This document shows positions 3,001 through 63,717 of a stretch of DNA of 64,000 bases, one piece after another (position 1 is the first letter of the stretch; every line of letters starts with the position of its first letter). A program made the position numbers and the translations under genes. Source of the DNA: Triparma columacea (Eukaryota; Sar; Bolidophyceae; Parmales; Triparmaceae); contig BRYA01000679.1 in NCBI GenBank assembly GCA_030267965.1, positions 1 to 64,000 on the forward strand, in the 5' to 3' direction. A model generated the notes under the pieces. The model did no database searches, was not told the origin of the DNA, and worked only from the letters and a program-made list of their open reading frames with translations.

Positions 3001-4608
3001 GCAGGCCTTTGTCTCTTCGTAGGCCTTGGTGTCACGTTTGGACTGTCCCTTGGGAGATGTGAGGTATCTAAAGCCGGAGACCCCGCAGGAGAGCTTGAGC
3101 TACGAGCGGAGAGGAAAGGAAACGGGCAATAACGAAGCGACGATGGAGAGGTGCGTTAGTTTTTGAAGGGGAGGAGACAAACGACAAACAATGAGAGCTG
3201 CGAAATATAGCCTCGTCACTTCTCACCTTCTCCTTGAGTTTCTCATCGCTACCCGTGATGAGCTGGTAGAAAATGTGGTAATTTCGTTCGCCCTCTTCTT
3301 GCTTACAGATGCGCGTTTTCTCCAGGAGGTAGTTGTTGATGGACGCTCCGACGATCTTCTTGGAGGAGGAGAATTGGATCTTGATAAACTTGCCAAAGCG
3401 GGAGGAGTTGTCGTTGCGGAGGGTTCTGGCATTTCCGAAGGACTCGAGGAGGGGGTTGGTGGAGAGGACCCTATTGGCCAGGGTCGGTATGGAACCGGAT
3501 GGCGTGGGGGAGTTCGGGGCGGCAGCGGCGGTGGAGGAGTCGGTCACGTAGGCAAGGTACTGTGGGGGGGGGGGGGGTTAGGGGGGGCATTGGTGGTTTG
3601 GGGCGCGTCACTTGCTTTTCTTTGCGACTCCCCCCGACGCCCAACTCCTCGAACGCACCTGCATAATCAACTTCGTTGCCTCAGTCTTTCCGGCCCCACT
3701 CTCGCCGGAAATTATGATAGACTGGTTGACACCGGTGGTGTTCTCGTCTGCGTACCCTCCGGTTTTCTCACTGTTCCCGACTTCCATCAAGTTGTTGAGG
3801 GCCTTGTCTGCGACCTTGAAGAGGTGGGGGGGGAGCTGCTTGTCCCTGTCATCGTGGTACTTGAGCATAAGATCGGTGCTGTATTCGTTCTTGTTCCACT
3901 TGTAGGGATTAATGCTAATCAGAACGGAACCGACTCCAGTGTAAACTTCGTCCCTGCCGTAGCGGGTGCGGAGAGTGTGCAGGAGGGAGGGCTCCGTGAT
4001 AGAAGACAGCATCATGATGTCAGGAACGCCTGTCAGGTCCAGGGGATGCACGATAGGCAGTGAGCTCACAGAGGACACGGTGTGCAAGGAAGAGTCCGAG
4101 AGACATTTTACCATACACACAGTGGGGGGTGGGGGGGGGGGAGAGTTGGGTTTGGACGGGGGGGTCGGGGGTGCCTGGACCTGGAGTGGGGGTGGGGGGG
4201 GGTCGAGGTGGGGCATGGGGGGGCAGGAGGGGGCAGGAGGGGTTAGGGGGCTGGAAAAGGTTGTAACAACGACCCGAACAACAACAACAACCCAAATCAC
4301 CCAACAAACACTGTACTAACCTGCTTCACAAAGGTACAGGGCTGGTATATGTACGAAGAGTAGAAAATATTCGGCAACTTTAACCCCCCTTTCCCAGGGC
4401 TAGCGGCCGAGATGGCAGCAGCAGTGTTGGGTGAAGCGACCTTGGACAGACCAGAACCAGTTCCATCAGATGGGATGTAATGGTCGGGGACAAGATAAAA
4501 GCATTTCTTGGGCTTATCCGCAATGGAAGACGAAGAAGGAGTCGATTCATGCCTTGAGCTTGGCGGTGGTCTCGATCCGCTGCCCTTGCCTTTGGTTTTC
4601 TTAGCCAT
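1..4608 (-). CDS. Myosin heavy chain with IQ region, UVR-like repeats and CBS tail (partial, 3' end off window)
   Basis: Actin-based motor. Exons, read on the minus strand: 4608-4321, about 4117-3659, 3559-3227 and 3099 to the window edge. The N-terminus is poor in recognisable domains. The motor has P-loop GESGAGKTE, switch [11 protein letters not shown] and switch [10 protein letters not shown] followed by INYANE. After the converter come IQ-like basic helices. Next (about nt 510-1250) are roughly five helical-hairpin repeats with a D/EF..A..LQ.KL pattern, resembling UVR motifs. At the edge (nt 1-290) is a CBS domain with [12 protein letters not shown] and a following VMTPNP linker, so a CBS pair is likely. 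About 1390 residues are visible. Exon joins 2-3 and 3-4 are GT-AG and keep frame. Exon 2 lacks an AG acceptor at a sensible place (intron about 4118-4320), so its start is approximate. Motor identity is certain; the cargo or regulatory role of the tail is inferred. Confidence 0.93.
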
Positions 4609-5232
4609 TTTTTAGTCTCAAAAGTTTGAACGAGAAGGAGTCGAAGAAGAATTTTTTCTTATAGAAAGATTGGGAGTTTCGAGACAAATTGGGGGGCTCA
4701 CGTAAGATTAATGAAGCGAAGATTTGCTGACAATTGCGTTGCAGCCTTGCAAATTCACACCAGAAGTTTCCTTTGCTCTGTGTTGCTTTCCCCACTCACC
4801 TCGCCAAGCAGCTTGGATTTCGGAAGGATGGGCTTTGTGCAGCTCCATCTTTTTTTTTGGTGAGTGTCTTAATATGACGAGGAATCTCCAGCTTCTTAAT
4901 AAATTCGAGGGTTATTTTTGGTGGTGTAAAGGATCCTCGATAAATTTGTGCTTATCTTTCCTTGAGAGTCTCCAACTTCACAAGTGCAACTCTCCGTGCA
5001 ATCGCAGTTCAGAGGTTCTTCTCTCTTTTCCCCCCTTGTCTTTGTATCGACAGCATTGCGCTTATTATGGGATCGCCCAAAATATCAACCAAGTGTCCTG
5101 GGTTACGGGCCTCGTTGGCTACCAAAGGGCTCCTGTGAAAAGGAGCATCATCGCCCTTGATGGCTGCCTGTTCTCTGGGGCTTTAAACACCTCTCCTAAC
5201 CCTCATTTCAACTTGTTCGATCTTCCCAGATT
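4609..5232. promoter_or_regulatory. Divergent intergenic region, myosin / phosphoserine aminotransferase
   Basis: The 624 bp lie between two start codons facing away from each other, so they must hold both promoters and 5' leaders. I see no RNA gene, transposon or convincing TATA box. A plus-strand reading frame beginning near 4724 is unrecognisable and runs into the downstream gene in the wrong frame. Confidence 0.5.
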
Positions 5233-6622: not shown

Positions 6623-6848
6623 AGGAAGAGGGACTTCGGTGGAGCTGGCAGCAGTTGAAATAAAGTGGTTCTAATTCTCATGTAATCGATTTTTTTGTAA
6701 GTTTTCATCTTTCTCTCGATCTCTTTGCATTAGGTTCCCGACGCACATTTCTTGTTTTGGCAATTATCGTCGGTAAAACAGTGTAGAGGAATATGGTATC
6801 CCTCAAGAAAGCAAACTTGAGTAAGTTTCTGCCTTGAACTGTGGCCAT

Positions 6849-8767
6849 TTATCCAGTAGTCTTGATGACCTCGCCATTCTCATCCACGGGCTTTCCGTCA
6901 TAACGGGTCTTGGCAAAAGCGGCCTTCTCCCTGGTGGCACTATCGGTGGCGTGATAGATGGTACGGATAAGCGAAGAGCTGCAACCTTCAGTTCGAGGGA
7001 GAAAGTGAACGGGCATGACGGACTCCACCCAGTCTCGCGAGGGGAAGTTGAGCATGTCGTCACCCCTTGCGTAGCAGCAGAGGCCGGCGTCGATGTCCTG
7101 GGCGCTTACGGCATTTTTTATGAAGGGCAAGGGGTCGGTGGAAGGGATCACGTAGATCATGTCAACGAATGGCTTGACGTTTTCCATCCTCGTCGTGAGG
7201 TTGTCAATGGGGTACTTCTTCTTGAGCTTGAAGTAACTGGTGATGGGGGGGGTGTGGGGTTAGGGTTCCGACGAGGTACAAGGGGCATGCATTGCGAGGC
7301 GCATATTGCGAGGCGCACAGATAACCAAGAGCGCGCGTCACGAGGAATGTAAATCACGATGCTCCACTCACCTTTCGTCATCGTGGATACCGGCCACGAT
7401 GAAATGCCCGAACTCCCTCAGGGACATGAGCACATTGGCGTGGCCACGGTGGAACAGGTCGAAGCAACCGATGGTGTAAACCTTGCGGTCGGACCAGCCG
7501 GAGGGAAGGAGGGGCTTGAGCGCGACGGTCGCATCGATCATCTTGAGAACCTTGGCGTGGAGAGACCTCAGGGCCCCGCCGTCAACAAGGAAGGGCAGCT
7601 TCCTCTCGATCTCAGCGAGCTTCTGCGCGGCGAGCAAAAGGGACCGCGAAAAAAGGTTGCGTTAGTGTATATATAGATGAAGTTGCTTTCCTCCGCCGTC
7701 GCTGTTGTAGTGACCCTCCCTCCCAATACCTTCCAAGATTTTCCATTCTCACCTGCTCCTGCGTCGTGGTTCCCATCACTTTGTCCTGCTTCTTGAGGAT
7801 CTTCCTGAAACCGGTGTGGTTAAGGGTGGTGAAATCGAGAAGCAGATTGAGCTCCCTCTCAAAGGTCCTCAGACTCTTTATGCTGTAGATGTAGTCCTTG
7901 AAGTGCTCGTTGTCGGCCGTCTGGCGGCAAAGATCCTTAAGAGAGACCGAGCGGGTGATACCCATGGCAGGCGAGGACACACGGGAGGAAGTGGAGGGAG
8001 ACTCCTCGGATGGAGAAGTGGAGATGTCGACAAGTTCATCCTCATCTTCAGAGGAGGAAGACGTATTTTGGATAAGGACCTCCTTGGTGGCAGCAAGCGT
8101 GGCTGCTGCTAGACTTAAATCACTAGGGCAACTGACCATGCCGCTGAGTCCATTCCTCGAGGTGCGACGAGAGAGGGAAGAGGTACCCTCCGAAACCTCA
8201 AGCTTGTTCAACCTCTCACGGAGCGTCTTCTCGTACTTTAATACCTCAGCTTCCTTACTGGAGTAAAATTTCAGGAGCTTTTCGACGCTCTCGTCCAGGA
8301 TGGCATCGAAAGATGCTCCGCCAATGGACCCAGGGGGGGGAGGAGGTGTCTTGCTTTTCAAGCTCTGCTTCAGCCTCTTGTAATCAATGGCATAGAATCT
8401 GGTGTGGGGTGGTAGAGGGGAGAAGATCGGGAGAGGAGGGGTTAGAGAAGGGGGGGATTTATTGGTTGAGGAGAGTTAGGAAGGAATGATTTTTGTAAAT
8501 AGCTTTGCCAAAGTTCCGCCTGGCCAGCAATGACCCATGAATACTGTCCTCCCTGGCCATTTGGCGCTCATTAGACCTCTTATATAAGCACTTAGTAATT
8601 GTAAGACCATATCCGAGTGAGGTAATCTTCAAAAAGATAGTCCTCAGCCCAAAAAATAACCATGGGACTCAAACGATAAAATGCAAAGAATTGATATATA
8701 TGAATGCGGGCATTACTCACTTCCACTCTTGTTGTACATTGGCGGCTAAGGTCTTGTTAAATTTCAT
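6849..8767 (-). CDS. SPX domain fused to a CTP:phosphocholine/phosphoethanolamine-type cytidylyltransferase
   Basis: Four exons (8767-8721, 8398-7753, 7622-7372, 7236-6849) give 443 residues; all joins are GT-AG and phase-consistent. A 47-nt first exon encodes MKFNKTLAANVQQEWK, the first SPX helix. Exon 2 continues with FYAIDYKRLKQ and ends near GFRKILKKQDKV, the third SPX segment; a Ser/acidic stretch separates the segments. SPX domains bind inositol pyrophosphates and report phosphate status. The C-terminal half is a nucleotidyltransferase: YTIGCFDLFHRGHANVL holds the HxGH motif (about residues 288-291), and RTEGCSSSLIRTI matches the ISTT-like motif. This family makes CDP-choline, CDP-ethanolamine or CDP-glycerol; the substrate cannot be told here. 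Inference: phosphate-regulated phospholipid head-group activation. Confidence 0.9.
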
Positions 8768-9678: not shown

Positions 9679-9822
9679 TATTATTTAAGAATGTATTCCG
9701 TTTTTCTGTGGACAATTTTTGCCCCTTCTTTAGTTCTTGTTAACCCTCGCCGTACCCCCACCCTGCTTGCCTCCCACCTTCCTCCCGTCCTCCCCCTTCC
9801 CCACACCCAAACCCAAACCCCC

Positions 9823-10984
9823 TTAATCGCACGCAATCTTGCTGTCGAAACTGCTCAAGGTAATAGCGAAGGCCTGAAAGGGGCTAATGGGCCACTGGAA
9901 GTCGCAGGTGAATTCGTCCTTGGCGACCCTTCCAAACTGGAGGATAATGTTGTCGTGATCTAGCTGGTCTACGAGCTGGAAGTTCTTGACACTGGCCATG
10001 GTGACTCTCCCGTTGAAATTGAGCACGTAGGCACCGACCTGGTCGTTCCACCTCGGGGGCTTGTTGATCAAGCTGACTAGATTCTTCATGCCGTAGTCGT
10101 CCTTATTTTTGAAAAGTGTCAGCATCTCTTCGTCCTTGTGCCGGGGCTTCCACACCACGATGCCCTTATCTTCGTGGACCTTGTTGATGCACACTTGCAT
10201 CTTCCTGGGTCCCCTGCTCCCGAGGACGTTGGAGGCATAAAGGATGCAGCCGAGCTGTACGTGTGCGGAGGAGGGGGGGAGCGAAGCGGCGACCAAGGAG
10301 GTTAGTGATGGGAGTGTCGGCCTTACACTTTCGGCTATCGATTCGCTCGCCGCCCCTCCCGCTCTCACCTCCTGCCTGACCTCCCCTGGCCCCCCACTGT
10401 CCTTGTAGTTGATGCCACTGTCGTAGATCTGGAACTCGGTTCCAACAAAGTTCGCCCTGACCTTGCCTATGTAATTAGAGCTGTTCTTGTTGTGGTCTCC
10501 GAGTTCACTGCTAATGAGGTAGTTGCTCGTAGTGTTGTTGGGCCTCTTCTTACTCGTCATGAGGAATCTATCTCCTTCCTTCAAGTAGACGCTGTAGGTG
10601 GGATAGAGCTTGTTAGTGCCGCTCTTGTTTCTCTTAATGTAGCACTGGATGATGCCTGCCCTCTTGGGGCAAGGCGACTTCAAGAACTTCTTCATGTTGT
10701 GGTCAAGGTCGAGCTCTGAGATGTCAAAGGGCTTCTCTTCAGCCGCTGGTCTGGTCGACTGATGGCTGAGGGGAACATCCTCCCTGAATGTTTCAGCTCT
10801 CGCGGCTGCGGCCATGCCCTCGAGGCTCGCCTTTTCACTGCTAGCTTGCCTCGAGTTCCTTTGCTGCTTCTCGCGCTCCTGAGCCCTCATGGCCACCTCC
10901 TTCTGACGCTCAGCTTCCTCTCTCTCCCTCTTCTCCCTCTGCCTCTGCACCTCCCTGTCTCTGTCCCTGTCCCTGTCCCTATTT

Positions 10985-11030
<46 letters not shown>

Positions 11031-11031
11031 T

Positions 11032-11070
<39 letters not shown>

Positions 11071-11191
11071 CTCTCCTCCTCTCCTTCTGTCATCCCTGTA
11101 CCTGTCGTCTCTGTACCTGTCACCGTCCCTGTCCCTGTCCCTGTCTCCTCCCCTCCTCCTGTCGTCCCTGTATCTATCATCTCTGTATCCA

Positions 11192-11241
<50 letters not shown>

Positions 11242-12977: not shown

Positions 12978-15900
12978 ATGGGCAAGACCCAAACTGCACC
13001 GGGTGGGAAGGGGGTCCTTAAGTCTGCACTCAAGAAGGATGGGTTCATAACCCTTCCTGGCGAGATGAAGAAGAAGGTATCGACCAAGACAGTTCCCTCA
13101 CAGCAGGCCCCTCCGCCGATCCAGATCCAGACTCCCCAGTCAAGTGCTACCGCGGCTGCTTCCTGCACTGGCCCCAGTGTGTTCACAATTGCGGATGCTA
13201 TAAAGCAGTGTGCGAACAACGTAATTGCGAGGTCCGCAGCCAATCCAACTTCCAACTACCGAAACTATGTTGTTGATGAGAGGACCTACGTAAACCTTTG
13301 GGCTTCGTTGTGTATGTTTCTCCGTAACCACAACTCCCATAAGCCGGGTCATTCTGTGTTGACTCCCAACCAGCACTACATTCCGACGCCTGTGAATATA
13401 ATTGGGATTGGGGTTGCTTCTCACAGGACTTTCAACCTCGGCATCAAGATCCCTGTCTTTGACCTTTCTCAAAAATTCGCCGTCAAGTATGACCTCGTTC
13501 AGCCGAAGACTATCTCCAACGGGAGGCCGTCGCAATCGTCGACTTTGAAGATTAGAGCCAAGGATTTGATAGACCCTTCTTGGAATGTAAACGTGGAAAA
13601 GGCCGAGTTTGCGATGCAAAGCTTGGTGGAGTGTATTGGCACCGCACTCAAGAGCGGCCGCCCGGTCAAGATTGACTTTGGGATCGGCACTCTTGATGGA
13701 AATAATTCAGTCTGCAACTTTAATTTCACACAACGGCCAGACACTGTAGAGGATCACAAGAAAAAGAAGTCTATCGGTGTGACTGGGAGGGCCCTCTCAT
13801 CCCCCAGGACGAGAAAGATCAGCGAGGCTGAGCAAGAGAAGATGAAGGCCGAAAAGTTGGCCACCAAGCTATCTCTCGATGTTAAGAAACTTAAATCTTC
13901 TGCACCCATCCTTCCCTTCTCGAAGGAGCCGACTCCCAGGACGGATGCAACGGTCACGCACCACATCGGTAGTGAGCAGCTTGAAGCCTGGGTCCCAATA
14001 TTCAGGAAAAAGGGCCCCCCTCTTCCCTCTCCCACTGCCCGAGCCGACGTGTCACAGGCTGATCAAGATGCCGAAGTTGGCGACGACAAGCCTCCACGAA
14101 GGGTGCAGCGCTCCGGTTCTATCTCTTTTGAGGCTGTCTTTGACGAGACTGCTCCACCCTTGCTGAATGAATTTGCCCGCCTCAAGTGCTCAACCATAAG
14201 CGGTGCTGACCTGCTTTCGTCCCCCAGTGACAAGATCGGGTCGTACTTCTCGCCTACTGCTGCCGCTCTATACTTGGACAAGGCTCTTGGGAGGATTTCT
14301 TGGGTAGAAGGTATGCGGAGGGGGGGCGATGCAGATCAGTTGGTTGACGTGATACCCGAGGACGACGTTTTTGGTTTGAAGGCTGTCAGGGAAGCTGAAA
14401 GGGCTATTGAGGAGGTGAGGAGGTCGGGGGGTGGGGAGAGGTGCAGCGTAGCATAACCAGTACGATATTGTGGGCGTTATAAGGCACCCAACGATACAAT
14501 TCTAACCACAAACGTAAATCTTTCGATTCGCTCGTTCATTGCAGAAGGAGAAACGGGAGATGCTGAAGAAGGAGTACCTGAGAAGACAGAGCCTGACGAC
14601 AATGCCCGCCGACGAATGTGAAGAAAGTAACAAGGGTGTTGAGGCAGGCAGCAAAATTGATGAGAAATTGGACGCCCCTGGTGCTGCCGACCCAAGCGTT
14701 GAGAACTTGTATGACGACGATATCTCGCCGAAACTTTCGACGAGGGGGGCAAAACGCTACCTGCACTACCTTAACAAGGGGAAGATGAGCAAGGATCTCA
14801 TTGCGCCCTTTGACGAGGCCGTGGTGAAGAGCCTCAAGACCAAGTTCGTCAGTGCACCGTCCACGAAGTTTGCCTCTTTCCTTCAAGAAATAGATACTAT
14901 GTACAACAATTCGATCAATAAGGCGACTCTTGATTACGTTCTGTTGTCAGATGCAGAGAGGATCAGACTTTCCATTGAGGAAATTCCCGCTGACGTGAGG
15001 ATTCCTAATTTTGGCAGTGACAACGGACCACTTGTAAGGCATCAGCCACCAGAGGTTTGGAGGACGGCTTTCGCGTCCGTGGGGGAGACTCACGAGGAGC
15101 GAGGGGTCATCTTGGCACCCCTGACCATCGTCAACGCAATGTGGCAAGATTTTTGTCACCTAAAGCTCGTGTCCGTCCCAACTAGCTACAAAGAGAGCCT
15201 GGAACAGAACAATGTCCAAATGAGCGTGGTCCAATTCGAGGAAAGTCAGCTAGCTCACATTCAGAGCGTTGTAGAAGAATTCAGGGATAACTGGCTTGTC
15301 AGCCTTCGGAATATGTTTGAGGACTGCGTTGAGAATGCTGGTGCTGCTCTTCAGGCTGACTTGGTGGACAGGTATATCAAGGCTTGGACAGTTGCCATGC
15401 AGTCGCAGTTGCGATCCGTCATCTCCAACTCTGTCGAGTCTCTCCTGGCCTTCTTTGAGATGTTTGCCCTCGAGCACGACGCTAACGTTCTGGAGAGGAG
15501 GAGGGTGGAGAAGATGGAAGGGGGGACGACGAAGCTTTCGGATTTTAAGTATAAGAGGCCCCCCCCTCCGTTCATCATTGACCTCATGACTGGTGAGAAA
15601 GGCGGCCAGTCTTGTGTTGTGCTCACCACGTCGAAGGAGCAGGTGGTGGAGAGGGTAACCAACATATTCGATACAATCACCAGTAGCTTCGACACCTTCG
15701 AGACAATGCACAATCTGACGAGAGGAGGGAGGACGAGGAGGCTTAAAATGTCAAGCAAGAGGGAGCCCTCAGTCACGGCAGCTAGAGCAAGGATTGTTCA
15801 GATTGTAGAGGAGAACATGATCTACAGCCAGAATTCACTAAAGAGGTACTCAAAGTTCGAGTACTTGTTCGACAGTAAGGCCACAGAAACTAACGCTGAT

Positions 15901-20139: not shown

Positions 20140-21858
20140 ATGTCAAAAACAGCTCCGCTGACGTCAATGGATAGAAGCCTCGGGGTAATCGCATCAGAAG
20201 AAGGCAGCCTGGCTTCGTCCCACTCAACGCTGCCCTTGGATAACCGATCTCCAGGGTCCTACCTGCCGCAGCACACTGGGACTGTTGGGGGTTTTGGTAC
20301 CCACCAGCCTCATGACGATGACAGCAGTAGCGACGAGGATGATGATGAGTTTGAGAGGCGTGCCCAAGCTTCCCGGGAACGGGACCGCGTTGGGCGCGCT
20401 GAAAGCATTCACTTTCCAGTTTTGGGAGGGTCAACAACTTCCGCTGTGGCTGTGGGGGGTCCCCCGTCGTCCTTGACGTTTGGCGGCATGCCTTCGACGA
20501 TTGAATCTTCCGGGGGCTTGGCTTTCAAGGATCCTACTGCTCCCACAGGGCCGAAGGATTCGAGGCCTCTTTGGAAGATACAGGAGGCCAGGAGGAGGTG
20601 AGAAAACTTGATAGAAAAGACAGCACTGCGACGACGATGTTGCAAACGTAGTAAGGAGGGAAAAGTAACCATAGCTTACACATTAATGCATCCCATTTCT
20701 GCGGCTCGCTTCGCTCGTGGCAGGAAAAAGGTTAGAGAGAAAATGGTTGAGGGATTGACTCTGGAGGACTACAACATCGCCAGCATTAAGGGAAGACTGC
20801 TGGGTGAGAGAAGGGCCAGGGCTCCTGATATGAAAAAGATGATGCACATGCACAACACGCCGAGGGACAAGGAGGGGAAGAAAGTGGAAGTATTGGAATC
20901 GCACAAGATGGTTGCTGACAATATAATAAAGACTGCGGATCAGGGTACAGTTGACAACAGCGTGTCCCTCAATGAGCTGCAAGTTTTTTTGGAGGGTACC
21001 TTCTACGCGGGATTCATGAAGTGGCTAACTGGGAAGGAGGACGGTGACGCCAGCAGATTCCACTCCCTCGATGACGACGGAAACCACTCCATAGAGGTGG
21101 AGGAGCTGAGCGTTGCCGTTGCCGACTACTACAGCGGCTACCTAAAGGGTGTGGGTTGGGAGGAGGTAGTAGAGTTCGCGGAGAAGAGCAGGGAAGAGAT
21201 GGAGCAACAAAAGAAAATGAGGAGGAGGACCATCGCCAAGCAGAAGCGCATAACGATTCGGAAGGCCGAGGAGAAGAAGGCTAGGGAGGACCACAGGAAA
21301 AAGAAAGCTGCCGAGAAGCTCGTCAGCACTGACCACGAAAAACTGGATAAAATTAGGCATAGACTTTTGGCCGCTTCTTATTCGTCAACAACGTGGGGGA
21401 TGAATTTTAATCTCATGTTTGAGAGGTTCGATAGGGACCAGAACGGGGAGCTCGACCTAGAGGAACTGCACACGTTGGTGAGGAAAGTTCTCCATGTGCC
21501 ACCAACTGCGATTACGGACGTTGAGCTTGAGGCTCTCTTTTCTTTTCTAGATTATGACGGCGGAGGCTCGATCGATCAAGAAGAGCTCATCGCCTTCATC
21601 AAGAAAGGCGAAGAGGAGAAGATGGGGGTTGATTTGTTGCCCTCTCACCTAAAATATATGGGTCCAAAGAGGACTGAGCATGAAGAGCTTTGTGCTCTGA
21701 TTAATTTCAAGACAAAGGAGGAGAAAGAAAAAGAGGAGAAGGAAGAGCAGCCCCCCCCGGGGGAGATACCGTGGAATACCAGCATAATTTCAACACGGAC
21801 AGAGAAGCCGCTGGTGATGTGTCGGCACACCGGGTATATCCCCTTAGATAAACGGTGA
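20140..21858 (+). CDS. EF-hand calcium-binding protein, 530 aa
   Basis: Two exons, 20140-20597 and 20724-21858, joined in phase 2; the intron ends CGCTTCGCTCGTGGCAG, one of the recurrent intron ends in this window. Three EF-hand loops are visible: DDDGNHSIEVEE (about residue 268), DRDQNGELDLEE (about 388) and DYDGGGSIDQEE (about 429). Each has Asp/Asn/Ser at positions 1, 3 and 5 and Glu at 12, so all should bind calcium. A basic coiled-coil-like segment rich in K, R and E lies between the first and second. The N-terminal 150 residues are Ser/Gly/Asp-rich and look disordered. No enzymatic domain is visible. I chose the ATG at 20140 because upstream in-frame starts are not ATG. A flagellar or calmodulin-like regulatory role is possible but unproven. 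Confidence 0.85.
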
Positions 21859-45437: not shown

Positions 45438-48400
45438 CTAGAAAAAATTATCGTCCTCTTCCTCCTCCATGGAATTAGAGAGGTACTGGTTAAGGTTCTT
45501 GCTGATTCCCTGACTTCCCTTGGCCTGTCCGAAGAGGTTGTCTAGTCGTTGCTTTTGGCTGAAGTTGCCCATGCTGACGCTCCTGGTCATACCCGCACTA
45601 ATGGTTTCGGCGTTTGCGCTCTTAGGGAGCGCATCGAGTAGGGTGTGTAGGTTTGAGTGCTTCAACCCAGCCCCGCCTTCACCTCCCACCCCTCCCCTGC
45701 CTCCCACACCCCCACCTAACGAGTGAAGGTCAACCGAGGAGAAGTATTTTCTCTCTCGCGCTGATACCTTTGTTAGCGCGTTAAGGAGCTCCGTTACTTC
45801 GTCGACGTCGTTGATGAAGGATGATGCCGCCGAGGGCTTCTTTCCGACAGTTGCCGTGAAGGACTTCATGTGCGCCGCGACGAGGCTGCGATGAGCAAAG
45901 CGAATCGCCAATAGGGTAGGGTGAGAAGGAATATAATTAGATGGGGAATTGTGTGTCGCAACCGCAACCGCAACCGCAACCGCAACCAATTCCGCAGCTC
46001 GCCACTTTCACCGTCCTCACCTCAAGGATGGCCTACTCATACTCCTCGCCTTCTTTCCTTGGACCTTCTGGAGCTCATTGTTGACAGCCTCCATCTCCTC
46101 GAACATGGGCTCATCGCAATTGTCGTCTCCAATGATGAGAGCGAAGTCGACTCGCTGGTTGCCAATACCCCCCCCCCCCGCCGCCTCTCCAGACCCTCCC
46201 CCTCCCTCCCCTCCCTCGTTTGCCAGCCCCTCCAGCACCCTTCTCAAAAGTACCCCCTTGGAGACTCCGACCGGCCTGACTTCAATGTAGCCTCCCCCCT
46301 CCCCCCCCCCCCCCCCTCTCAACACTTCGACATTGAAACTCTTCAGTACGCTTGTCAAGTGATCCTCGAGCTCTTTGCTCTGCAAGGCCCCGAACTCGGG
46401 GTCCGCGTCCTTGTACTGCCACAATACCTTGCTCTCGGTCTGCTCTATGTAACTCCCGTGGGTCCTGCTAGTGTAAACCTCCATGATTGTCAGAGCCGTG
46501 GGCCTCCAGCTCCTATCCTGTCCCTCAGAGTTCATTATCTCCCACTTCCTCTCGCCATCCGCCGCCGAACGGGTCGCCTGGTGAGGCCAGGAGTAGAACA
46601 TCCCGTGCTCGGCAGCGAGACCAAGGTTTGGCACAGCCCCGAGGGTCTCGGTGATGGCGGAGCGCTCCTTCCCAGAGACGACGAAGACGTTGTTGCGAGG
46701 ATCCGAGCACAGGGCAGTGAGGGTGCTAATGAGCTCCTCCTGTGACGATCGAAGCGAGTCGCGAAAGGGTTAGAATTAGAAACGAAAAAGACCAGAGAGA
46801 GGGACCGACTTGAGCATCATGTCGGTAACGTTACTGCTGCCATTGTTGACAGTGTCAACACTGAGAGCTCGTCGCCTCCCTCCTCGCTCCTTACTCCGGA
46901 CTTCACTCCTCACTCTGCCCCTCACTGACCTGAATCGTGGAGACCCTCTTCGTTTCTTTGTTGGTGGAAAGGATGAACTTCATCAGGCCCTCCTTGTCCT
47001 CGCTGTCGTTGATTATAGTCCCCCCGTAATCGAGCATAATGAGCCTCTTGTGGGAATTCCTGTAGCTCTTGGAAACTTGCGTGGTGTCTAGGGACTTGAA
47101 ACCCGTTTCCATGCCGAGAAGGCGGAACCCGAGCCCGAGCCCGGCCCCGGAGTACTGCTGCCCCCCAGTGTTCTTCTTGACCCCCTTGAGATCCAAGAGC
47201 ACCGCCAGGGCCCACCTCTGAGTGGTGACCCTCTTGACGAACTCCATGTCGTACTTCAGCCTCCTCCTGTGCTCCTCGACGTCCATGGAGAGGCTGCACT
47301 CGATGGCGTGAGCGATCTCGGCAACCTTCCAGGGGTTGATGTGGATACTCCCCCGCATGACCCTCGCAGAGGAAGCAAACTCCGAGAGAATGCAGACCCC
47401 CGGTCGGACCCCTACCGCAGTTTGGTCTCCGGCCTCAGCCCTGGCGTAGTTGTCGATCCCGACCTGGACAGCGTCCTGGTGGGCTACGCAGAACTCGAGG
47501 GGGAGCCTGTTGAAGCCGTCGCGAAGCGAAGAGATCATTACGATGTCGACGGCCCTCAGGAGGGCCATGCGCTGGTTAAGTCTGCAAGGAGTAATGGGTT
47601 AGAAATTGTCGTACCGATGTGGCGTCGGGATGACGTTTAGGAACAAGGTATCTCCATTGCAATGCTGCGGAGTCGATTTTGGCTCCTCCTTACCTCATCT
47701 CGGACTCGGAGCACTCCTGGAACTGAATAGTGTTGGGGAACTTGGCGTTGACCCTTTCCACGAGGGCCACGACCTCGGCCTTCGTGGCCTTATAGTCGTC
47801 CCCTCTCTCAAATGCAGAAATTCCGACCTGCACGAGGACGATCTTGTCGCGGTACTCGGGCCTCTTGTCGAGGAAGCGCTCCAAGCCAAGAATCTTCAAA
47901 GGCGTACCCTTGAGGCTCTCGAGCCTATCGATGGCGCCCATGATGATCTGTGATTGTTAATGGTCGAAGGAGGAGGAAAGGGGTTAGAATTTTGCTCCCA
48001 CGTGAAAAACAGAGGAGGTACTATTATCTCACCTTGCCCTTGAACTGCTCTCGGATGGCCCTGACCTTATCGGCCGTGGAGCTGTGGTCAAGGCATTTCT
48101 TGAGAAGAGGAGTTTCGACACCAGCATGGATGGACGTGATGGTGACCTGCCTGCCGTTGGTATCTATGGCGAGGTTGTGGCCGCCGTGGGTGTCCGGGAT
48201 CATACCATACGTGAGGCCGAGGAGACGGCGGCAGCACGTGAGGAAGTGGCGAGCGTACTCGTAGAGGTGGAACCCTACCTGGTCGGCGTTGAGCATGCCC
48301 CTGAGGATGTCCTCGCGGCACCAAAGTGTCCGGAAGATTTCTGAGGAGGGGAAGGGTGTGTGGAGGAAGAGCCCGATTTTCGCGAGCCATCCCACCTTGC

Positions 48401-50325: not shown

Positions 50326-51406
50326 ATGGAAGATTCTATATCCAACGAGAATATTGCGCCCAAAAGAAAGGCGGCTAGCGAATTATGTGCTGATGAAGAG
50401 CAGGAGGTGAAGAAAATTTGCGCTATTTCTCGCGTCGTGACAGATCACACCCAAAGCAGTGGAGGGAAAGAAACGGAGGTAGGCCAAGAAAAGTCGGAAG
50501 AAACGGCGAAAGCGTCGGAAGACACGGCGAAAGGCAGGCCTAGCACCCCAAAAACGCCAGAGGGGGTTCTTGATGTGCCAATGTTCCTGGGTCTTGAGGA
50601 TGGGGCGAGGTTGGCGATCCTGTGGGACTTGGATGGGGAAGGGGAGGGGGAGAAGATTAGGAAGTGGTGGGGAGGGACGCTACTACCGTACGACGGAAGG
50701 ACGCACGCGATGACTGACGACGAGACAGGGGACAACGCGACTTGTGCCTTGAGGGTTATCGACTATGATGAGGCCCCAGAGTTGGGTTACGCAGAGAGGA
50801 CCCTTAGTGAGGTGGCTTTCCTGGGGGACCACCTCGTCTACGATCTGTCGGAGGACAACACGACCTGCTACAAGAGGGAGGGAGAGTCCTGGGAGCCTAG
50901 TGACGTTGACCTTGAGGAGGAGCCCGCCGAGGTGCTGGGGGCTGTAGGTGAGATAACCAAAGTCAGTAACCTTCTTGTAATTCGTCTCATAATGCTCACT
51001 ACCCCCCCACCCCCACAGTCTGCGACGGCGACGTCTACTCTGGTGACATGGAAAAGCTTGTCGACGGCATCTTCCTGTCCGTCCTCAAGAAGGTGTTCCC
51101 TATGTACTCAAGCAGCACCGCCTACCAACAGAGGCTCGTCGCGGAAACTTACGTCAAGAGCAAGGAGAAGGTCCTCGAAGTCATGAAGGTCAAGGTGAGA
51201 ATGGGCAGATACCTCCTTTCTTAAAATTCCACGCTGACTCTCCGAATGCGCAGCTAAGTGGGGTTACCAACATCACGAGGGAGCACATTCAAGAGATTAT
51301 GGAGGAGGTGGGGGCCGCAATCCAGGCCACAAAGGCTGGATCGGGGGAGGGGGTCGGGGGAGGGGGAGTCGCAGGGGCCGGTGGGGGCGGAGGGTCCGGC
51401 TTCTAG
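50326..51406 (+). CDS. Uncharacterised acidic protein with Gly-rich tail
   Basis: Three exons, 50326-50947, 51019-51194 and 51254-51406, joined in phases 1 and 0, give 316 residues. I do not recognise a family. Residues 1-80 are charged and Thr/Lys-rich with AETAK.SED repeats and could be nuclear. Residues ~85-205 look folded (DVPMFLGLEDGARLAILWDL, WWGGTLLPYDGRTHAMTDDE, LGDHLVYDLSEDNTTCYKRE) and could be a Tudor- or chromo-like beta barrel, but this is a guess. A helical region follows (VYSGDMEKLVDGIFLSVLKK, YQQRLVAETYVKSKEKVLEV), then a Gly-rich end. The second intron begins GTGAGAATGGGC, the recurrent start. Divergent from the trehalose gene, 186 bp apart. Confidence 0.75.
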
Positions 51407-51475: not shown

Positions 51476-53497
51476 TTAGTTGCCCATTTTCTTCAGCTCA
51501 TCGACGAACGCTGGGAAAGGGCCATACATCTCGCTCATTTCCCTAGGTTTGATCTTAAGGTGATTCCCGATACCGGCATCCGCACCAGCCTTCAGGAGGA
51601 CCGCGGCAGCGGCAGCGTTGCCTTCACGAGCAGCTATATTCAGTGGTGTCATTTGGGGGTTTTGACTGACGTGCTGTACTATTCGACTTTGAGATCCGCA
51701 CCTCCTTGCAAAGTTCATGGTGCCGTAGATTGTCTTCCAGTACCTTGTTGTCGGGTTTAGGCGGTAGTTCAGGTCTGCGCCATTATCGATAAGAAGCTGT
51801 ATCATCTCAGGGTTGCTGTCGTCCCCGAAGGTTGCGCAGCCAAGGGTGCTCATCCCGTTGCTGTTGACGTGGTTGACGTCTGACCCCTTCTCAATGAGAA
51901 GTTTGGCAATCTCCAAGCCTGCTTTTCCCCGCCCGAATAACACGCACCAATTTAGGCAAGTGGAACCGTTGAGCTTCTCAACCTCATTCAAGTCGGTTTC
52001 GGGGAAGCGTTCCAGCCAGTATTTGACGTTATCGACCTTGCTCCTCTGGCACGCATAGTGCAGGGCGTAAGCGCCATTAGTCTTGCATTTCGCTCTAGGG
52101 TCCGCACCTGCGTCGAGAAGCCTCTTAATAATGCTTGGAGAAGAATACATCATTGCAGAATGCAAGATTGTCTGACCTCTGACGCCGTAGCAAAAGGGAA
52201 AATCCTTCGTGAAGGGGGACTCAAGCTCTTCTTGGGTTAGATCTTTCGCTTTCAAATATTCAATCACACACTCTTCCTCCCTCCCAATAACCGCGAACCT
52301 GCAATGAGAGAAGCGAATCACAAAAAAGGTTAGGACCAAAGGTGAACATTTGTTGACAAGATCTCCAAGCCCCCTCCACGCTCGAACCTTGCAACTACTT
52401 GCCGAAAACTTACCTAAGCCTTGTCCAGCCAGACTCCGCAATCTTTCTCTCCTTTATTTTGCACATGTTTATGTAGCACATTTTATCACTGATATCGTAC
52501 GGTTCCATGGCATCCTTGTCACCGAAGACGCTCTTGCCTCCTGTCATCTCTTTCCTCATGACAAATAGGTAGCGGTAGACAATCTTATCTTCCCCCGTGA
52601 CCCTCATTTGGGAGAGCTTCTTGTCAATAATAGTTTTCACCACATCATTAACAACGTCACGGTTCTCTTCCACCGAATATTCTGCATCACAACAAACCAT
52701 CTTGTAGGAGTCGTAAGCGTACGTCAGATAGGGGGTAGCGACACCGGCCTGGACGACCATCACCGGGCAGCCTTCATGCCGTGACAACATTCGGGCCTGG
52801 AACTCGAGGTTGCACCACCCCCTGTTACGCCACGTTCGAAGATCTTTAGTCCCCGTCGTGGAGTGCGAGCACGAAGGAGTCAAGGCGATCATCATATCGG
52901 AATAGCTTATGTAGGCAGGGATGCTGCGGATCGCCTTGATCTGGTCCTCTCTTGCCGAAGGATCGTAGTGAGTTTGCGGCATGGAAATGTAATCGAACCA
53001 GATATAGCCCCTATATAAGGACCTCATCTCATCCTTCCCTGCGACGGGCAAAGCGTTGGGTAGTGTTAGAGATGAATTTTCAGAGAGAATGCCTGCCAGC
53101 GGTTGCTGATTCAATTTTTCCCGCTCTCACCAACTTCGTTGGTTATACCCGGCGACCCGGGATATGCTGCTTGTTGCGCGTAGTGCATCTGCACCGTTGC
53201 CACTTTTCCATCTCGCATCCTCAACATTAGCTCCTTCAATTCTGCGATGTGCTTGTTCTCAGGATCAGGGTGATTGTTGTCTAGCCACTCATGGGATACA
53301 TACGTCGTCAGCTGCTCAAACTCATACTTCCACTCTACTAGCATTCCCTGCTCGAGAAGCTCCTGGTGGCAGGGTATTGGACATGGGAGGTTGATGAAAT
53401 CCTGAGCATTTATGACATACATCGGATAAAGCAGGTCTACATTGGAACTGTACTTCCTCCGATGGGCAACACCTCCTGTGCCCCCGATCTTTACCAT
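51476..53497 (-). CDS. Ankyrin-repeat protein with N-terminal SHEWL/RGWC domain
   Basis: Three exons (53497-53131, 53038-52414, 52298-51476) give 604 residues. The N-terminal half contains TTYVSHEWLDNNHPDPENKH, then YIWFDYISMPQT, AIRSIPAYISYSDMMIALTP and WRNRGWCNLEFQARMLS. This pattern (SH.W....HPDP, W.DY.S.PQ, R.WC..E) is one I know from large protein families of dinoflagellates, haptophytes and stramenopiles; its layout recalls TIR/HET-type signalling domains, but function is not established. The C-terminal half has four or five ankyrin repeats: GQTILHSAMMYSSPSIIKRL, GAYALHYACQRSKVDNVKYW, then STLGCATFGDDSNPEMIQLL and TPLNIAAREGNAAAAAVLLK. No membrane segment. ATG 53497 is the first in frame; codons upstream to about 53518 are open but have no ATG. 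Confidence 0.82.
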
Positions 53498-58173: not shown

Positions 58174-58245
58174 ACAAATTTGTGTGATTATTGGGCTAAA
58201 ACCCAACGTGGAGTTATTATTACTACCCATGTGTCCCCAACTTTT

Positions 58246-59838
58246 TCATTTTTCCAAGACGAAGAATCTCGCGTCGTGACCCAATATTTCTACACCCTCG
58301 AGCACATCGTCAAACTGGCCGACGTCCTTCCTGCCCCAGACGCACCTGACCTTGACGCCCTTCTCGCCTTTGAACCCAGGAATGTCGTCGAACTTGAGGT
58401 CCAAAGTCCTCTCGTCCACCTCGGAATTCATTATGAGAACAGCAACCTTGGAACCATCCCATGACAAGGGTTTGTAAAGGTACTGGTACGAGGGAGCCAC
58501 GTAACTGTCGTATTCAAGGGTAATGTTTTCGCTTGAGCTCAAGTAGGGTCCTCCGGGGTGGCCAAACCACGCCTGGTTGACTTCAATGGCCTCAGGGTTG
58601 GCAATGAGTTCCCAGACACTGTCCATCACGGTCGCATTATTGACATCCATGCTCAAGGTAAGGGGTGAGGAGATGATGCACCAAGAACCAAAGTGGCTGC
58701 GGCGAGTGCGAGATGGCGGGAGGGTTAGCTTGAGGCGACGGGCAAGAGGTTACAGTACACACAGTGCCCGTTTTCTTGTCCATTCTTACCTCCTACTCTC
58801 TTGCTCGTTCAACCCGGTGTCGTCGTCGCCACCTGGCCCATGATCGCATCCGATTTCAAGCATATCGGGGTACGACCAGCAACCAGGCCTCGAAAGGAGT
58901 GTGTCAGCGTACTTGTACGTCGTAGCAAGGTTTTCCATGACGCTGCCGTAGGCCGCCCTCACGTCTCCCGAGGTCCTAAAAAAGTTCCAAGGGCACCAGT
59001 CTAGAGTCGGCTCAAAAGGTGGGGCGCTGCAGAAGTTGTTAGTAATGTGGGAATGTAATATACTCCTTCGCTCCTCCCGTCCTTCGCTCCTCGCCCCCCC
59101 AGTCCATCGCTCTTCGCCCCCCCTCACCTTCCCCAGTGGCAATTCTCCATGGTAATGGCTTTCCCAGTAGCGTTGATGAGATCGTCGTAAAGCTCGAGGT
59201 TGAGCTGGCTTCCACATCCATCAAGCTTGACACCGTCAAAACCAAAGCGAATCAAAGCCTTAACGTCTCCCTCGTAAAACTTATCCTCGTCCGTATCATT
59301 TTCGGCACAAATGCAATTATTTCCGTACCAGCCAGCCGTCAAACCAATGGAGTGGGCCTTGTCAGTCATTGCCTTCATATCTGGAAAGAGCTCCTCGTTC
59401 ACAACAGGCGCTCCATCGTCAGTGTGGAAGGTGTACCCCTTCTCACCGTAGCTTCCGCACTTCTGCCAGTTATCATCCAAACCCACATCGCAGTAACCAA
59501 GGTCGCACAAACTCGTGGGTTTTCCATCAACTGTCCTGCTTCGGTCAACCATTCCGTCCATGATTGTTTCAATGAGCTCTTGAGTTACATCCGCTCCATA
59601 GAGGTTCCAAGAGCGCCAACCCATAGGGGGGGTAAGTGCCATACCGTTTTCTTTGGCTGGGAGTCGGAGGTTTGGGGTGAGAGGTGTGTGACAAGAATTA
59701 CTCTCGTTACTTGGGTCATCCCCATCATGGCCAGCAAAGGCCAAGCGCACGATTCGAATTATCTTTGCATGCACCCAGATATCGACCCTCACCTGTAGCC
59801 ACAGTGGCCAAAACGAGAGCGGAAATAACACGGAGCAT
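58246..59838 (-). CDS. Alpha-galactosidase, glycoside hydrolase family 27, secreted
   Basis: Cleaves terminal alpha-galactose from oligosaccharides or glycolipids. Four exons (59838-59793, 59656-59128, 59026-58790, 58696-58246) give 420 residues, the normal GH27 size. Exon 1 encodes just the signal peptide core MLRVISALVLATVAT. GH27 hallmarks: LTPPMGWRSWNLYG, GYCDVGLDDNWQ, then GWYGNNCIC, and FGFDGVKLDGCGS with the nucleophile Asp in KLDGCG. The acid/base Asp lies in the region SRPGCWSYPDMLEIGCDHGP. It continues SHFGSWCIISSPLTLSMDV and EAIEVNQAWFGHPGG. A C-terminal beta domain ends VLEK. Vacuolar or extracellular by its signal peptide. Confidence 0.94.
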
Positions 59839-60022
59839 AATTTGGGTGTCAATTAACCTAAAATTAGGATTCGGCTTATGGCCCTGGCGGAGTCTCCGGT
59901 CTCCGAAAGTCAATGTCTGCTACTGAAGCAGCAACTCAAGTGCTAATTCATTGCACACCTGGGCGCTGAAGCATTTATTTTCAGCTAACTGAGCCCGAAC
60001 TGTTCCTTCAACCCGTTTTACG

Positions 60023-61270: not shown

Positions 61271-61525
61271 TTTGGACGACACGTTTACTGTACAAAATAC
61301 AAAAAAAGAGTTTTCTCTTTGCGCTCTGCTCGCGTTTCGGACGTGTGGTGGTGTCGGATGGAAGTGGCAAATCACCCTTTGATTCTTTCATTCATTTCAT
61401 TTCTTCACTCTTTCATTGCATTTTGCATTACGTGCATAAAATTTATCCATCGTAGTCATTAACGATCACGATCACCAACACACAAAAATAACCCAAAGAA
61501 CCACGAATAAGATCATAGGGGCAAA

Positions 61526-63717
61526 ATGATTCACAAACAATCATCGAAGTTTCGAAGTTGTCTGTTTTTGATGGTTTTGCTCGTTATCAACCCAAATTCT
61601 GCATCTGCTAATGGAAACTGGCTCGAAAGAATCATGGGTAAAGGGAGATTAGACGTTGGAGAGTCGTACAATTCACCATCATTCAATCAAGTTCGAGGGT
61701 TGGATGAAGATGACAACTCATCACTCCCTCACAATGACGTATCTACACCGCCCTCTTCCAGACCTCACGTGCCTTATACTGGCTTTTTGGCTTTGCCTAA
61801 GGCCCCACTTATGACGTTGTTTGGTGGTTGGTTTCTGCTATCCTTAGTTAAGGAGCTGCGGTTGTTAATACAGGAAGTAGCAGACAGCGGCTTGGCTGAC
61901 CTAGACGGCAACGGACTGCCACCGGCTGTCGGAGCGAAGAAGAGGAGACACGGGTTGCCGCAGTCTGACCTCGATGACGTGGAGTCGTTCATGAAGGTGA
62001 GATGAGAAGAAGAAAGAGAGAGAGAGAGAGCAAGATAGAGGAAGAGAGAGGCGAGCGCAAGATAAGTTCTCCCAAAACCGCTGCTTTGCGATTCTCACCC
62101 TTATTGCAGCCTTCGACACCCATAATCGAGTCGCTTGTTGCTCGACTATGCCCACCAGCAAAGCCAGAGGCAGGTCCCTTTCTGGAGCAGTCAGGTCGCC
62201 CTGGACAGGGGGGCGAGGTCCAAACCTTCCAAAAAATGTACCAGAAGCGTGGTGCGAGGAGGACGGCGAGGGCCTCGGACCCCTCCAAAATCCCGCCTCC
62301 TCCCCCCTCCCCTTCCGAGAAGGTCGTCGCGACCTACCGTAACCTCCTGTCTCGCCTCACCAACTCCGAGCTCACCATGCTCTCCCAAATTCTCCACTCC
62401 CCCCCCTCAACCCCCCCTAAGATCGGGGGAATGTCCACCGTCAAGAAATACCTCCTCTCCACCCTCCTCCCCAAAAGGTCAAAGTACAAGTCTGCCCTCC
62501 TCCAACCTCCCACCGGCCTCCTCCTGTACGGACCCCCGGGAAACGGCAAGACTCTCCTCTGCTCTTTCGTCAGTCACTTCTGCTACGAGAACGCGAGGCC
62601 GTTTCTAACGGTCAGGCCTGGGACGTTCTACTCAAAGTTCGTGGGAGACACGAGCGTTAATGTGGCTACATTTTTCAGCGTTGTTAAGAAGCTTAACTGC
62701 TTCAACGCTCTGTATTTCAATATGTGGAAGGAGGTGAGACCGCAGGGGAAAGAAGGTAGCGGAGGAGCGTAGCCATGACGTCAACAATGTATAAGTCCAA
62801 TGCACATTAGTGCGATGCAAGCAAAACCTTCTTGCAACTCACTTCGATTTTTGCTCGCCCACCGCTCGCCTGCTGCTCGCTCGTCGTATTTTTCTCACCA
62901 ATCTTCCCAACCCCTTACACAATTCACTTTCAACACTTCATCCTAGGAGTTCATGAACGCTGGGGGTACTGGGAAGACCGCAGTTTTCGTGGACGAGGTA
63001 GATGGCCTCTTCAGAAGCAGGGGGGCTGGCGGGGGTGGTGGTTCGGAAGGGAACGAGGTTTACAGGGACTTCAAGACGGAGTTCATGCAGGCATGGGACG
63101 GGATCGATGGCGGGGAGGGGGGGCTGATCGTCATCGGCGCGAGCAACAGGCCGTACGATATCGACGAAGCGTTTCTGAGGAGGATGCCGAGGAGCTACAA
63201 GATAGGCCCCCCGAGCTACAAGACGAGGTTGAAGATCCTCGAGAGCATAACCTCAGACTTCCCGACAGACTCTTCGTCGCTGGGGCCTCTGGCACGGGAC
63301 ACGGAAGGCTACAGCGCCAACGACTTGAAAGAGGTCTGTAGGATCGCGGCGACGAACTGGGTTGAGATGGGGGAGCCAGGAGGCGAGGTCGGGGGAAGTG
63401 TGTTTGCGGACGCTCTGGAGAGGTTCACGCCGAGCGCCGTCAACAGCAGGGAGTACGCGACGGATGTCAGGGAGTACGAGGGTGCCTTTGGAGGGGGGGT
63501 GGAGGGGGTGGGGAGAATTGGGGGTTTGGACGGTCGTGGCTGGCAGGGGGGGGAGGAGGAGCAGGGGTGGGTGGGGGGGGCTGAGGAGGAGGAGGAGGAG
63601 GAGGACGAGGAGGAGGAGGAAGAGGAGGGGGAGGAGGGGGAGCAGGAGATCAATAGTAGCGACGACGAGGAGGTGCTTGGCGATTTTGACGACGAAGTTA
63701 GCGATGACGATGAGTAG
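61526..63717 (+). CDS. Membrane-anchored AAA ATPase, Msp1/ATAD1-like, with acidic tail
   Basis: Msp1/ATAD1 enzymes pull mislocalised tail-anchored proteins from membranes. Three exons, 61526-61996, 62110-62733 and 62947-63717, give 621 residues. N-terminal hydrophobic CLFLMVLLVINPNSASA may be a signal peptide, and LMTLFGGWFLLSLVKELRLL is a membrane anchor, so it may sit in the ER or a plastid membrane. The AAA core has Walker A YGPPGNGKT, Walker B AVFVDEVDGLFRSR, sensor IVIGASNRPYDID, and arginine fingers in FLRRMPRSYKI. Between the pore region (FVGDTSVNVATFFSVVKKLN) and Walker B is an extra ~25 residues (NALYFNMWKE, then EFMNAGGTG) spanning the second intron. The last ~75 residues are almost all Glu, Asp and Gly, unlike yeast Msp1. 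Confidence 0.85.

Follow-up and report, generated by a model that had tools for sequence, protein, structure and literature searches.

Similar introns and intron ends in a window of Triparma columacea DNA

Why should introns of unrelated genes begin and end alike? The question is raised by a stretch of 64,000 nt of Triparma columacea DNA (all of it analysed and hereafter called the window), and it bears on two larger ones: where new introns originate has been debated for a long time, and it is not settled whether introners travel as DNA or as RNA. Introns were predicted with a purpose-written gene finder, whose splice models (donor -3 to +6, acceptor -15 to +1) were trained on the same sequence. 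It recovers the window introns named by an earlier, sequence-only reading at the coordinates which that reading gave. The introns that matter here are the following.

7623..7752, - strand: intron, GTGAGAATGG start; branch-point-to-acceptor half aligns over 41 nt (83%) with L007:5655-5768, an intron on a different contig
14415..14544, + strand: intron, 3' module CTAACC..GATTCGCTCGTTCATTGCAG; the next exon of the gene matches Pfam DHC_N2 (dynein heavy chain)
20598..20723, + strand: intron, 3' module with 1/12 mismatch (GGCTCGCTTCGCTCGTGGCAG)
33567..33707, - strand: intron, GTGAGATTGG start; 3' module with 4/12 mismatches
34331..34456, - strand: intron, GTGAGAATGG start; 3' module with 2/12 mismatches
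37646..37713, + strand: NAD synthetase intron, first 26 nt like family X (see below); CGCTCGCTCGTCGCAG end
37977..38050, + strand: NAD synthetase intron, TTTGGTCGTCGCAG end; acceptor corrected by hand
38223..38363, + strand: NAD synthetase intron, GTGAGAATGG start; CTCGCTCGTCGCAG end
39718..39806, - strand: PRP4 intron, 3' module shifted off the acceptor (CTTCGCTCGTCACTT); GCGACGAG near the 5' side
40560..40665, - strand: PRP4 intron, GTGAGAATGGGCAAGAG start
41230..41320, - strand: PRP4 intron, GTGAGAATGG start
42088..42247, + strand: intron, GTGAGAATGGACGAG start; inner arm GACGAGCGAAGG
45886..46020, - strand: intron, 3' module with 2/12 mismatches
46740..46929, - strand: intron, long 3' module CTAACCCTTTCGCGACTCGCTTCGATCGTCACAG; 5' arm one mismatch from GAGGAGCGAAG
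51195..51253, + strand: intron, GTGAGAATGGGCAG start
52299..52413, - strand: intron, 3' module with 3/12 mismatches
53039..53130, - strand: intron, 3' module with 2/12 mismatches (GCTTTGCCCGTCGCAG)
58697..58789, - strand: intron, GTAAGAATGGACAAGAAA start (extended 5' module)

The sequence-only reading had named seven introns as starting with GTGAGAATGG, and all seven do so exactly (7623-7752, 34331-34456, 38223-38363, 40560-40665, 41230-41320, 42088-42247 and 51195-51253). Allowing one mismatch, this sequence occurs 24 times in the window against 5.55 expected, and TTCGCTCGTCGCAG, allowing three, 20 times against 5.72. The 15-mer GTGAGAATGGACGAG at the start of 42088..42247 has 26 exact copies in the genome, against 0 when reversed. 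At the other end, CTTCGCTCGTCG/CAG terminates 9 of the 48 predicted window introns with at most 4/12 mismatches. Five introns had been said to end with CTAACC followed by the motif. This is so for 14415-14544; three (20598-20723, 37646-37713 and 38223-38363) have the motif but lack CTAACC, and 33567-33707 has CTAAC with a looser match to the motif.

The junctions of two window genes were compared with related proteins, and with the nearest relatives the alignment is gap-free across them. The nearest relatives of the NAD synthetase (P0122, P0123) show no gap within 8 residues of 5/5 junctions, one of which had been hand-corrected ahead of the gap test, and the nearest relative of PRP4 (P0241) shows none at 6/6; P0242 (414 aa), another relative of PRP4 but a shorter one, shows gaps at 3/6. 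The correction consisted in dropping acceptor 38071, predicted by the gene finder, for 38050, at which the relatives align without a gap. The start of the NAD synthetase was also set by hand, to 36737.

Searched alone against the genome, 42088-42247 had no relative at E≤0.01 and 46740-46929 none at E≤1, although an absent match is weak evidence since these DNA searches skip very common words. Because these two introns, searched singly, lack a genome copy, the introner members in the window would seem to be for the most part decayed ones.

End modules across the genome

Genome-wide, exact GTGAGAATGG is found 894 times against 108 for the reversed control, and the 15-mer CTTCGCTCGTCGCAG 78 times against 0. 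An unbiased sample was drawn from 259 kb, 0.7% of the genome, which by extrapolation would correspond to about 27,600 introns genome-wide. It comprised 147 introns, reduced to 138 by dropping nine of L004, L008 and L020; one similar pair inside a single L018 gene was retained. The 3' module, with at most 4/12 mismatches, ends 23 of 135 unbiased introns against 1.7 expected, a figure in which a mild bias to the motif is possible, since the acceptor model spans the same last 15 nt. Neither the genome counts nor columns -31 to -16 are affected by this bias.

These columns were examined at the 15-mer loci, taking the first 30 of the 78 in contig order. Twenty-five are acceptors of predicted introns, three of these (L038, L045 and L050) with a weak upstream exon; the four genes among them that were compared with Pfam match known families (UDPGP; ABC_tran+ABC2_membrane_7; ABC_tran+R1_ABCA1; 7tm_3). 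When L021 (inside L001) and L037 (the tandem neighbour of L036) are left out, 28 loci chosen by their last 15 nt remain, and their unselected columns -31 to -16 carry 7.48 bits, against a mean of 1.48 and a maximum of 3.19 in 2000 draws of random introns. In motif discovery by EM, the pyrimidine tract drowned out other signals.

One explanation is that these ends are an extended splicing signal and nothing else, the spliceosome preferring GTGAGAATGG and a TTCGCTCGTCGCAG acceptor on which unrelated introns converge. The shared signals do lie at the splice sites, introns of the sample mostly have no more than their ends in common, and the two window introns searched singly have no full-length relative. 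Against this, the block at +6 to +10 is correlated (10 exact against 2.7 expected, p=0.0002), and an interior 5' module, GACAAGAAG, is enriched in 3'-selected introns (5/24 against 4/136 unbiased, p=0.004; the 24 are the 25 loci with a predicted intron minus L021). The links to the 3' motif within the unbiased introns are not significant, either for AATGG at +6 to +10 (p=0.08) or for GACAAGAAG (p=0.19), and AATGG within one mismatch is not commoner in the 3'-selected introns (5/24) than in the unbiased ones (28/138). The similar introns beside unrelated flanks described below also speak against convergence, which is disfavoured and very unlikely as the sole explanation. A U1 candidate was located at C195:46116-46287; were the U1 5' end complementary to GUGAGAAUGG, this would favour some contribution of a splicing signal, at the 5' end only.

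The 3' motif occurs chiefly in sense introns; between genes it stands at control level. With at most two mismatches in the 259 kb, it was found 26 times in sense introns (8 for the reversed control), 16 times in exons (24), 6 times antisense in introns (1) and 4 times in intergenic DNA (6). The six antisense matches fall in four introns, where they may be inverted arms.

Family X

Besides end modules shared beyond the splice signals, the genome has dispersed introns that are nearly identical although their 5' flanks are unrelated. Family X is found at 11 places, counting that of the query, which are spread over 10 contigs and show 76-100% identity over 80 nt. The similarity begins at intron base 1 in 10/11 places; it reaches the 5' exon-intron boundary and ends there, as judged from 10/11 starts and 8/11 flanks. 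Among the eight 5' flanks compared, those of L075 and L076 (C286/C69) are paralogues, and the other pairs score at most 12, against a shuffled maximum of 13. Three of the eight have a clearly exonic coding score, three a middling one, and two are uninformative. The 3' ends and downstream flanks were compared at 2/11 places: both introns continue through CTTCGCTCG and differ in their last bases. Introners are recognised from a group of at least four similar introns, and family X provides at least seven independent sites among the eight flanks when C286/C69 is counted once. The sequence-only reading had proposed introners and had named the lack both of clusters of alignable introns and of polymorphic insertions as the observation that would contradict it; family X, at 11 dispersed places, is such a cluster and supports the proposal. 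Viral contigs contained no exact match to a 21-mer of family X or to a 22-nt 3' module.

The paired motif GTGAGAATG-N{60,90}-CTTCGCTCG, counted for gaps of 60-90 only, occurs at 48 sites against 0 in the reversed control. When compared to 80 nt, 21 of the 48 fall into clusters of 9, 8 (loose), 2 and 2. Groups of two or three such sites alone lie below the four-intron criterion.

Similar introns could also have been carried along by paralogous genes through duplication of genes or of exon-intron units. This holds for the C286/C69 pair and for L004 and L020, where 33-nt exons of a multigene family stand in tandem arrays (39 contigs have 150 matches to them). The remaining flanks of family X are unrelated, however (8/11 places compared), and the array introns had been removed from the 138-intron set. 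From these flanks, paralogous genes do not appear to explain family X, and duplication is a most improbable source of the pattern. When the 147 introns were clustered, the pairs that at first ranked best came from genes in which a unit of 33-nt exon and intron is repeated in tandem, and from other local duplications, a confounder for which the nine introns were dropped.

A further explanation is that ordinary repeats inserted into pre-existing introns and at times brought a new 3' splice site with them. In its favour, the matches of the L036 repeat, 47 at E≤1, mostly extend over no more than a part of the query intron, and several introns hold two or more tandem copies of the 3' module. It does not sit well with the start of family X similarity at the first intron base, nor with the L040 intron, which interrupts an ABC transporter within its Walker A motif and has an inverted repeat one base from both ends. 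I consider it unlikely.

A probable superfamily of introners

The genome very probably carries a superfamily of introners, that is, mobile spliceosomal introns that give rise to new introns and with time decay to ordinary introns. An introner copy would begin with GTGAGAATGG(A/G)CAAGAAG.. and finish with a branch-point-to-acceptor module of about CTAACgCAAcCCTTTCCGCGACTCGCTTCGCTCGTCGC. Inserted into an exon after AG, it would be excised exactly and leave the protein unchanged, the splicing of family X being predicted. Young copies, of which family X would be an example, should be alignable from the first base, and older ones would retain only their ends, making up a visible share of introns, those of the window included. 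The decayed introns would then be descendants of these elements, and there seems to be a series that leads from young copies through decayed ones to ordinary introns.

In keeping with insertion at AG, the phases of the introns (59/21/20%) are not distinguishable from the phases in which AG occurs in coding sequence (51/24/25%; p=0.20); AG percentages are partly built in, as the donor model favours AG before GT. AG on both sides of an intron is also the splice consensus.

RNA or DNA?

Introners might be copied through RNA, the excised intron being reverse-spliced, reverse-transcribed and recombined into the genome, and I give this route not quite an even chance. Two observations count against it: the inverted repeat of the L040 intron, a perfect 18-bp pair one base inside both ends, and the small antisense excess of the 3' motif in introns.

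The other route is that of non-autonomous DNA transposons with terminal inverted repeats, mobilised by a transposase, which insert at AG with an AG duplication of at most 2 bp that supplies the 3' splice site. This is a serious possibility, if somewhat short of even. The L040 repeat and the antisense matches are what it predicts, and so is the 5' arm GAGGAGCGAAG, present in 6 of 24 3'-selected introns against 6 of 138 unbiased ones (p=0.003). Moreover, GTGCGACGAGCGAAG occurs 21 times against once in the reversed control, a splice signal would not require a 3' module as specific as this one of 30 nt, and in a published survey (PMC9860276) the introner families whose ends are informative mostly look DNA-based. 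Against it, most copies lack inverted arms, and in 87 unbiased introns of at least 100 nt, internal inverted repeats are not in excess, self-pairs (14.48) scoring no better than shuffled sequences (14.51) or swapped partners (15.43). The terminal inverted repeats that had been hinted at seem confined to a subset, the six introns with the arm and the single perfect pair. In 42088-42247 itself, GACGAGCGAAGG does lie near the 5' end but is not part of a terminal inverted repeat, since the partner is missing from the intron's own 3' end, TCTGATTCCCAG. Target duplications of 3-8 bp at splice sites, also anticipated, were not found: at k=3, 4, 5, 6 and 8 there is no excess in 47 motif or 138 unbiased introns, hence none beyond AG. 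Finally, the intergenic motif stays at control level. If the DNA route is true, a transposase gene is expected between ends matching TGCGACGAGCGAAGCGAG.

Between RNA-level copying and DNA transposition the balance is almost even. A bolder and rather doubtful proposal is that at least a quarter of all introns in a lineage sister to the diatoms stem from one superfamily, whose interiors are interchangeable and whose ends are fixed (at the 5' end a GTGAGAATGGACAAGAAG block, at the 3' end a branch-point-to-acceptor block of 40 nt), and arose by reverse splicing at AG, the ends being recognition sequences of the spliceosome and not of a transposase. The genome is a good place to set DNA against RNA copying because the pattern is AG-anchored, duplication-free and mostly sense, with inverted arms in a minority.

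Comparison with known introners

Florenciella and Aureococcus are ochrophytes, as is the host here. The introner elements of Micromonas are those of Verhelst et al. 2013 (PMC3879977). The present elements are very probably introners of a known kind in a host that is neither Aureococcus nor Micromonas, nor a pelagophyte, but a bolidophyte of the Parmales, whose nearest named relatives are Triparma and Tetraparma. This small marine alga stands beside the diatoms, and several relatives from its order have been sequenced, so that intron birth and ageing could be followed directly.

As in the survey of Gozashti et al. 2022 (PMC9860276), similar introns form families whose members lie in unrelated genes, the element brings its own splice sites, and insertion mostly leaves the mRNA length unchanged. 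By contrast, the host is a bolidophyte, Triparma being absent from the survey's main text, and different groups have common end modules and differing interiors, unlike the introners described there. Inverted repeats without target duplication are recorded in that survey for Acanthoeca. The Micromonas elements lie in sense orientation in transcribed regions (PMC3879977), as the 3' motif mostly does in the 259 kb examined here, and like the present ones they include nested or merged copies. Intron transposition by reverse splicing has been proposed for them, in a paper whose main text does not contain the terms 'target site' and 'inverted repeat' (PMC3879977). Micromonas CCMP1545 has some 6,100 copies (PMC3879977), whereas the one young family measured here has 11 places and most motif introns have the ends only. 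Rapid decay to regular introns is described for the fungal introner-like elements (PMC4457414) and would be common to those found here; the fungal ones, reported in PMC9860276 as lacking TSD or TIR, differ by their unrelated host group and by the inverted arms that a subset keeps here. Florenciella copies co-opt both splice sites (PMC9860276), whereas here the 5' splice site is the first bases of the element. Lastly, Aureococcus copies add codons (PMC9860276), whereas the 11 junctions compared here with nearest relatives add no residues.

Intron sample and host genome

Introns were predicted in the window and in 20 stretches on other contigs (259 kb in total) with a self-written gene finder using short splice models. 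The donor model (-3 to +6) stops short of the extra 5' bases in question, while the acceptor model (-15 to +1) takes in the last 15 nt of the intron; what is said of the 3' end is therefore based mainly on genome counts (37.85 Mb, 789 contigs) and on columns farther upstream. The procedure gave 93 genes and 189 introns, 147 of which have a good coding score on either side, and it recovered the very introns located by the sequence-only reading. The spliced FabF protein (window 54898-56454) shares 472 of 474 residues with a catalogue protein, its next-best relatives being those of Triparma verrucosa (88%), T. laevis f. longispina (86%) and Tetraparma gracilis (84%). Because FabF is closest to Triparma and Tetraparma proteins, the host is placed among the bolidophytes (Parmales), the sister group of diatoms. 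The word "intron" is absent from the main text of the Parmales genome paper (PMC10328945), and among the papers searched none joins "introner" with "bolido-" or "Triparma", a listing in the supplementary tables of PMC9860276 being possible.

The sole U1 snRNA candidate (C195:46116-46287, + strand) scores 61.5 bits, under the Rfam cut-off of 69.5. At 10900-11300 of the window, a minus-strand gene has a charged repeat tract from a long CCCTGT run (plus strand).

Shared intron ends

All seven introns said to begin with GTGAGAATGG do so. This 10-mer occurs 894 times in the genome, against 108 for the reversed word; the corresponding figures are 26 against 0 for GTGAGAATGGACGAG and 78 against 0 for CTTCGCTCGTCGCAG. 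Among introns not chosen by motif (unbiased introns), CTTCGCTCGTCG lies at -15 to -4 with at most 2/12 mismatches in 11 of 135, against 0.02 after shuffling. With at most 4/12 mismatches it is found in 23 of 135, and this number less the 1.7 expected after shuffling may represent the introner-derived share of introns, a larger share being possible. In 28 loci picked by their last 15 nt only, with a common 3' end of about CCCTTcCGCgaCTCGCTTCGCTCGTCGCAG, the 16 unselected columns upstream hold 7.48 bits, against 1.48 in random introns. Exactly AATGG stands at +6 to +10 in 10 introns out of 138, where independent columns would give 2.7 (p=0.0002).

Similar introns at dissimilar sites

Across the genome, GTGAGAATG and CTTCGCTCG occur together at 60-90 nt spacing at 48 sites (reversed control, 0), 21 of which lie in similarity clusters. 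The tightest cluster, family X, occupies 11 places on 10 contigs; 5' flanks were compared for eight places and the 3' boundary for two. Two of the eight flanks are a paralogous pair, and the other flank pairs reach a similarity of at most 12, against 13 for shuffled sequence, i.e. none above chance. Before GTGAGAATGG, the flanks end in GGCAG, TCCAG, CACAG, GGCAG, AGGAG (the paralogous pair), CCAAG and GATGG, and their coding score is clear in three, middling in three and uninformative in two. Alike predicted introns at unlike flanks are the signature of introners, mobile spliceosomal introns that create new introns; family X thus supplies the alignable clusters at unrelated sites that the sequence-only reading had envisaged.

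Another repeat, L036, gives 47 matches with E<=1, most of which are incomplete. Eleven lie on contig C117 (48.8 kb; L038), which is a local hot spot of copies, with at least three in adjacent introns of one coiled-coil-like gene.

The strongest intron pairs in the 259 kb were set aside as confounders, chiefly a multigene family of tandem 33-nt exon plus intron units. This family (L004:1350-4789, - strand; L020:5330-6558, + strand; 150 matches on 39 contigs) has short exons, often of 33 nt (11 residues), with similar introns of 130-410 nt between them. Among the matches listed, all minus-strand ones lie below position 10,000 of the contig and plus-strand ones higher; the family perhaps points outwards like subtelomeric genes, match positions having been set against contig extent for C420 only. 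Two predicted introns at L008 (2163-2607 and 3477-3834, - strand), 83% identical across 358 nt, could instead reflect a duplicated segment that the gene finder misinterpreted.

For two window introns searched alone, 42088-42247 and 46740-46929, the genome yielded no relative. Alignments of several further window introns with motif introns elsewhere score above any shuffled window intron (best 32 against 19), some of these alignments being plain purine or pyrimidine runs. The window thus seems to hold mostly decayed introners.

Linked modules and the mode of copying

Introns selected by their 3' end carry the 5' module GACAAGAAG in 5/24 cases, against 4/136 unbiased introns (p=0.004); for the inverted arm GAGGAGCGAAG the figures are 6/24 and 6/138 (p=0.003), and one or the other is present in 10/24. 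Unbiased introns by themselves show no significant linkage of 5' sequence to the 3' motif (p=0.08, for AATGG, and 0.19), and AATGG is no more frequent in the 3'-selected introns (5/24) than in unbiased ones (28/138). Acceptors of predicted introns coincide with 25 of 30 motif loci, the upstream exon being weak in three. Four host genes examined have the Pfam domains UDPGP, ABC_tran + ABC2_membrane_7, ABC_tran + R1_ABCA1, and 7tm_3. The intron at locus L040 interrupts the Walker A motif of its host gene (GPSGA^GKSS), and its two ends, each from one base inwards, form a perfect inverted repeat of 18 bp. The terminal inverted repeats hinted at from sequence alone are partly supported, for a subset (L040 and the arm-bearing 6/24). 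The L040 repeat is the strongest support for movement by DNA transposition, which a broad survey prefers for most introners (PMC9860276) and which I rate somewhat short of an even chance here.

Target duplications of 3-8 bp, looked for at splice sites, did not appear: no direct repeat longer than AG flanks the motif-bearing introns. A 2-bp AG duplication may accompany insertion, the flanking AG being also splice consensus and favoured by the donor model. Introns show no phase difference from the AG dinucleotides of coding sequence, which is what AG as the sole target rule would give. In the 259 kb, the 3' motif (<=2 mismatches) is found 26 times in sense within introns (reversed control, 8) and 6 times in antisense (control, 1), with no excess in exons (16 against 24) or intergenic sequence (4 against 6). 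The antisense matches are spread over four introns, most of them in the 5' half; either inverted arms or insertions in antisense could account for them. The absence of both longer target duplications and an intergenic excess is the strongest point for copying through RNA, by reverse splicing of the excised intron, to which I give close to an even chance. Reverse splicing is held responsible for the Micromonas elements, described as sense-oriented only (PMC3879977).

Introns at L032, L034 and L051-L070 have tandem 3' modules, with units ending GACTCGCTTCGCTCGTCGC, and upstream of them repeated purine-rich units ATCAGAGGAGCGCAAGGC; together these are potential stems.

In NAD synthetase and PRP4, 11 of 11 junctions (one after its acceptor was corrected by hand) align gap-free within 8 residues with the nearest relatives, so that insertion seems to leave the protein unaffected; in the alignment with a shorter PRP4 relative, three of six junctions show gaps.
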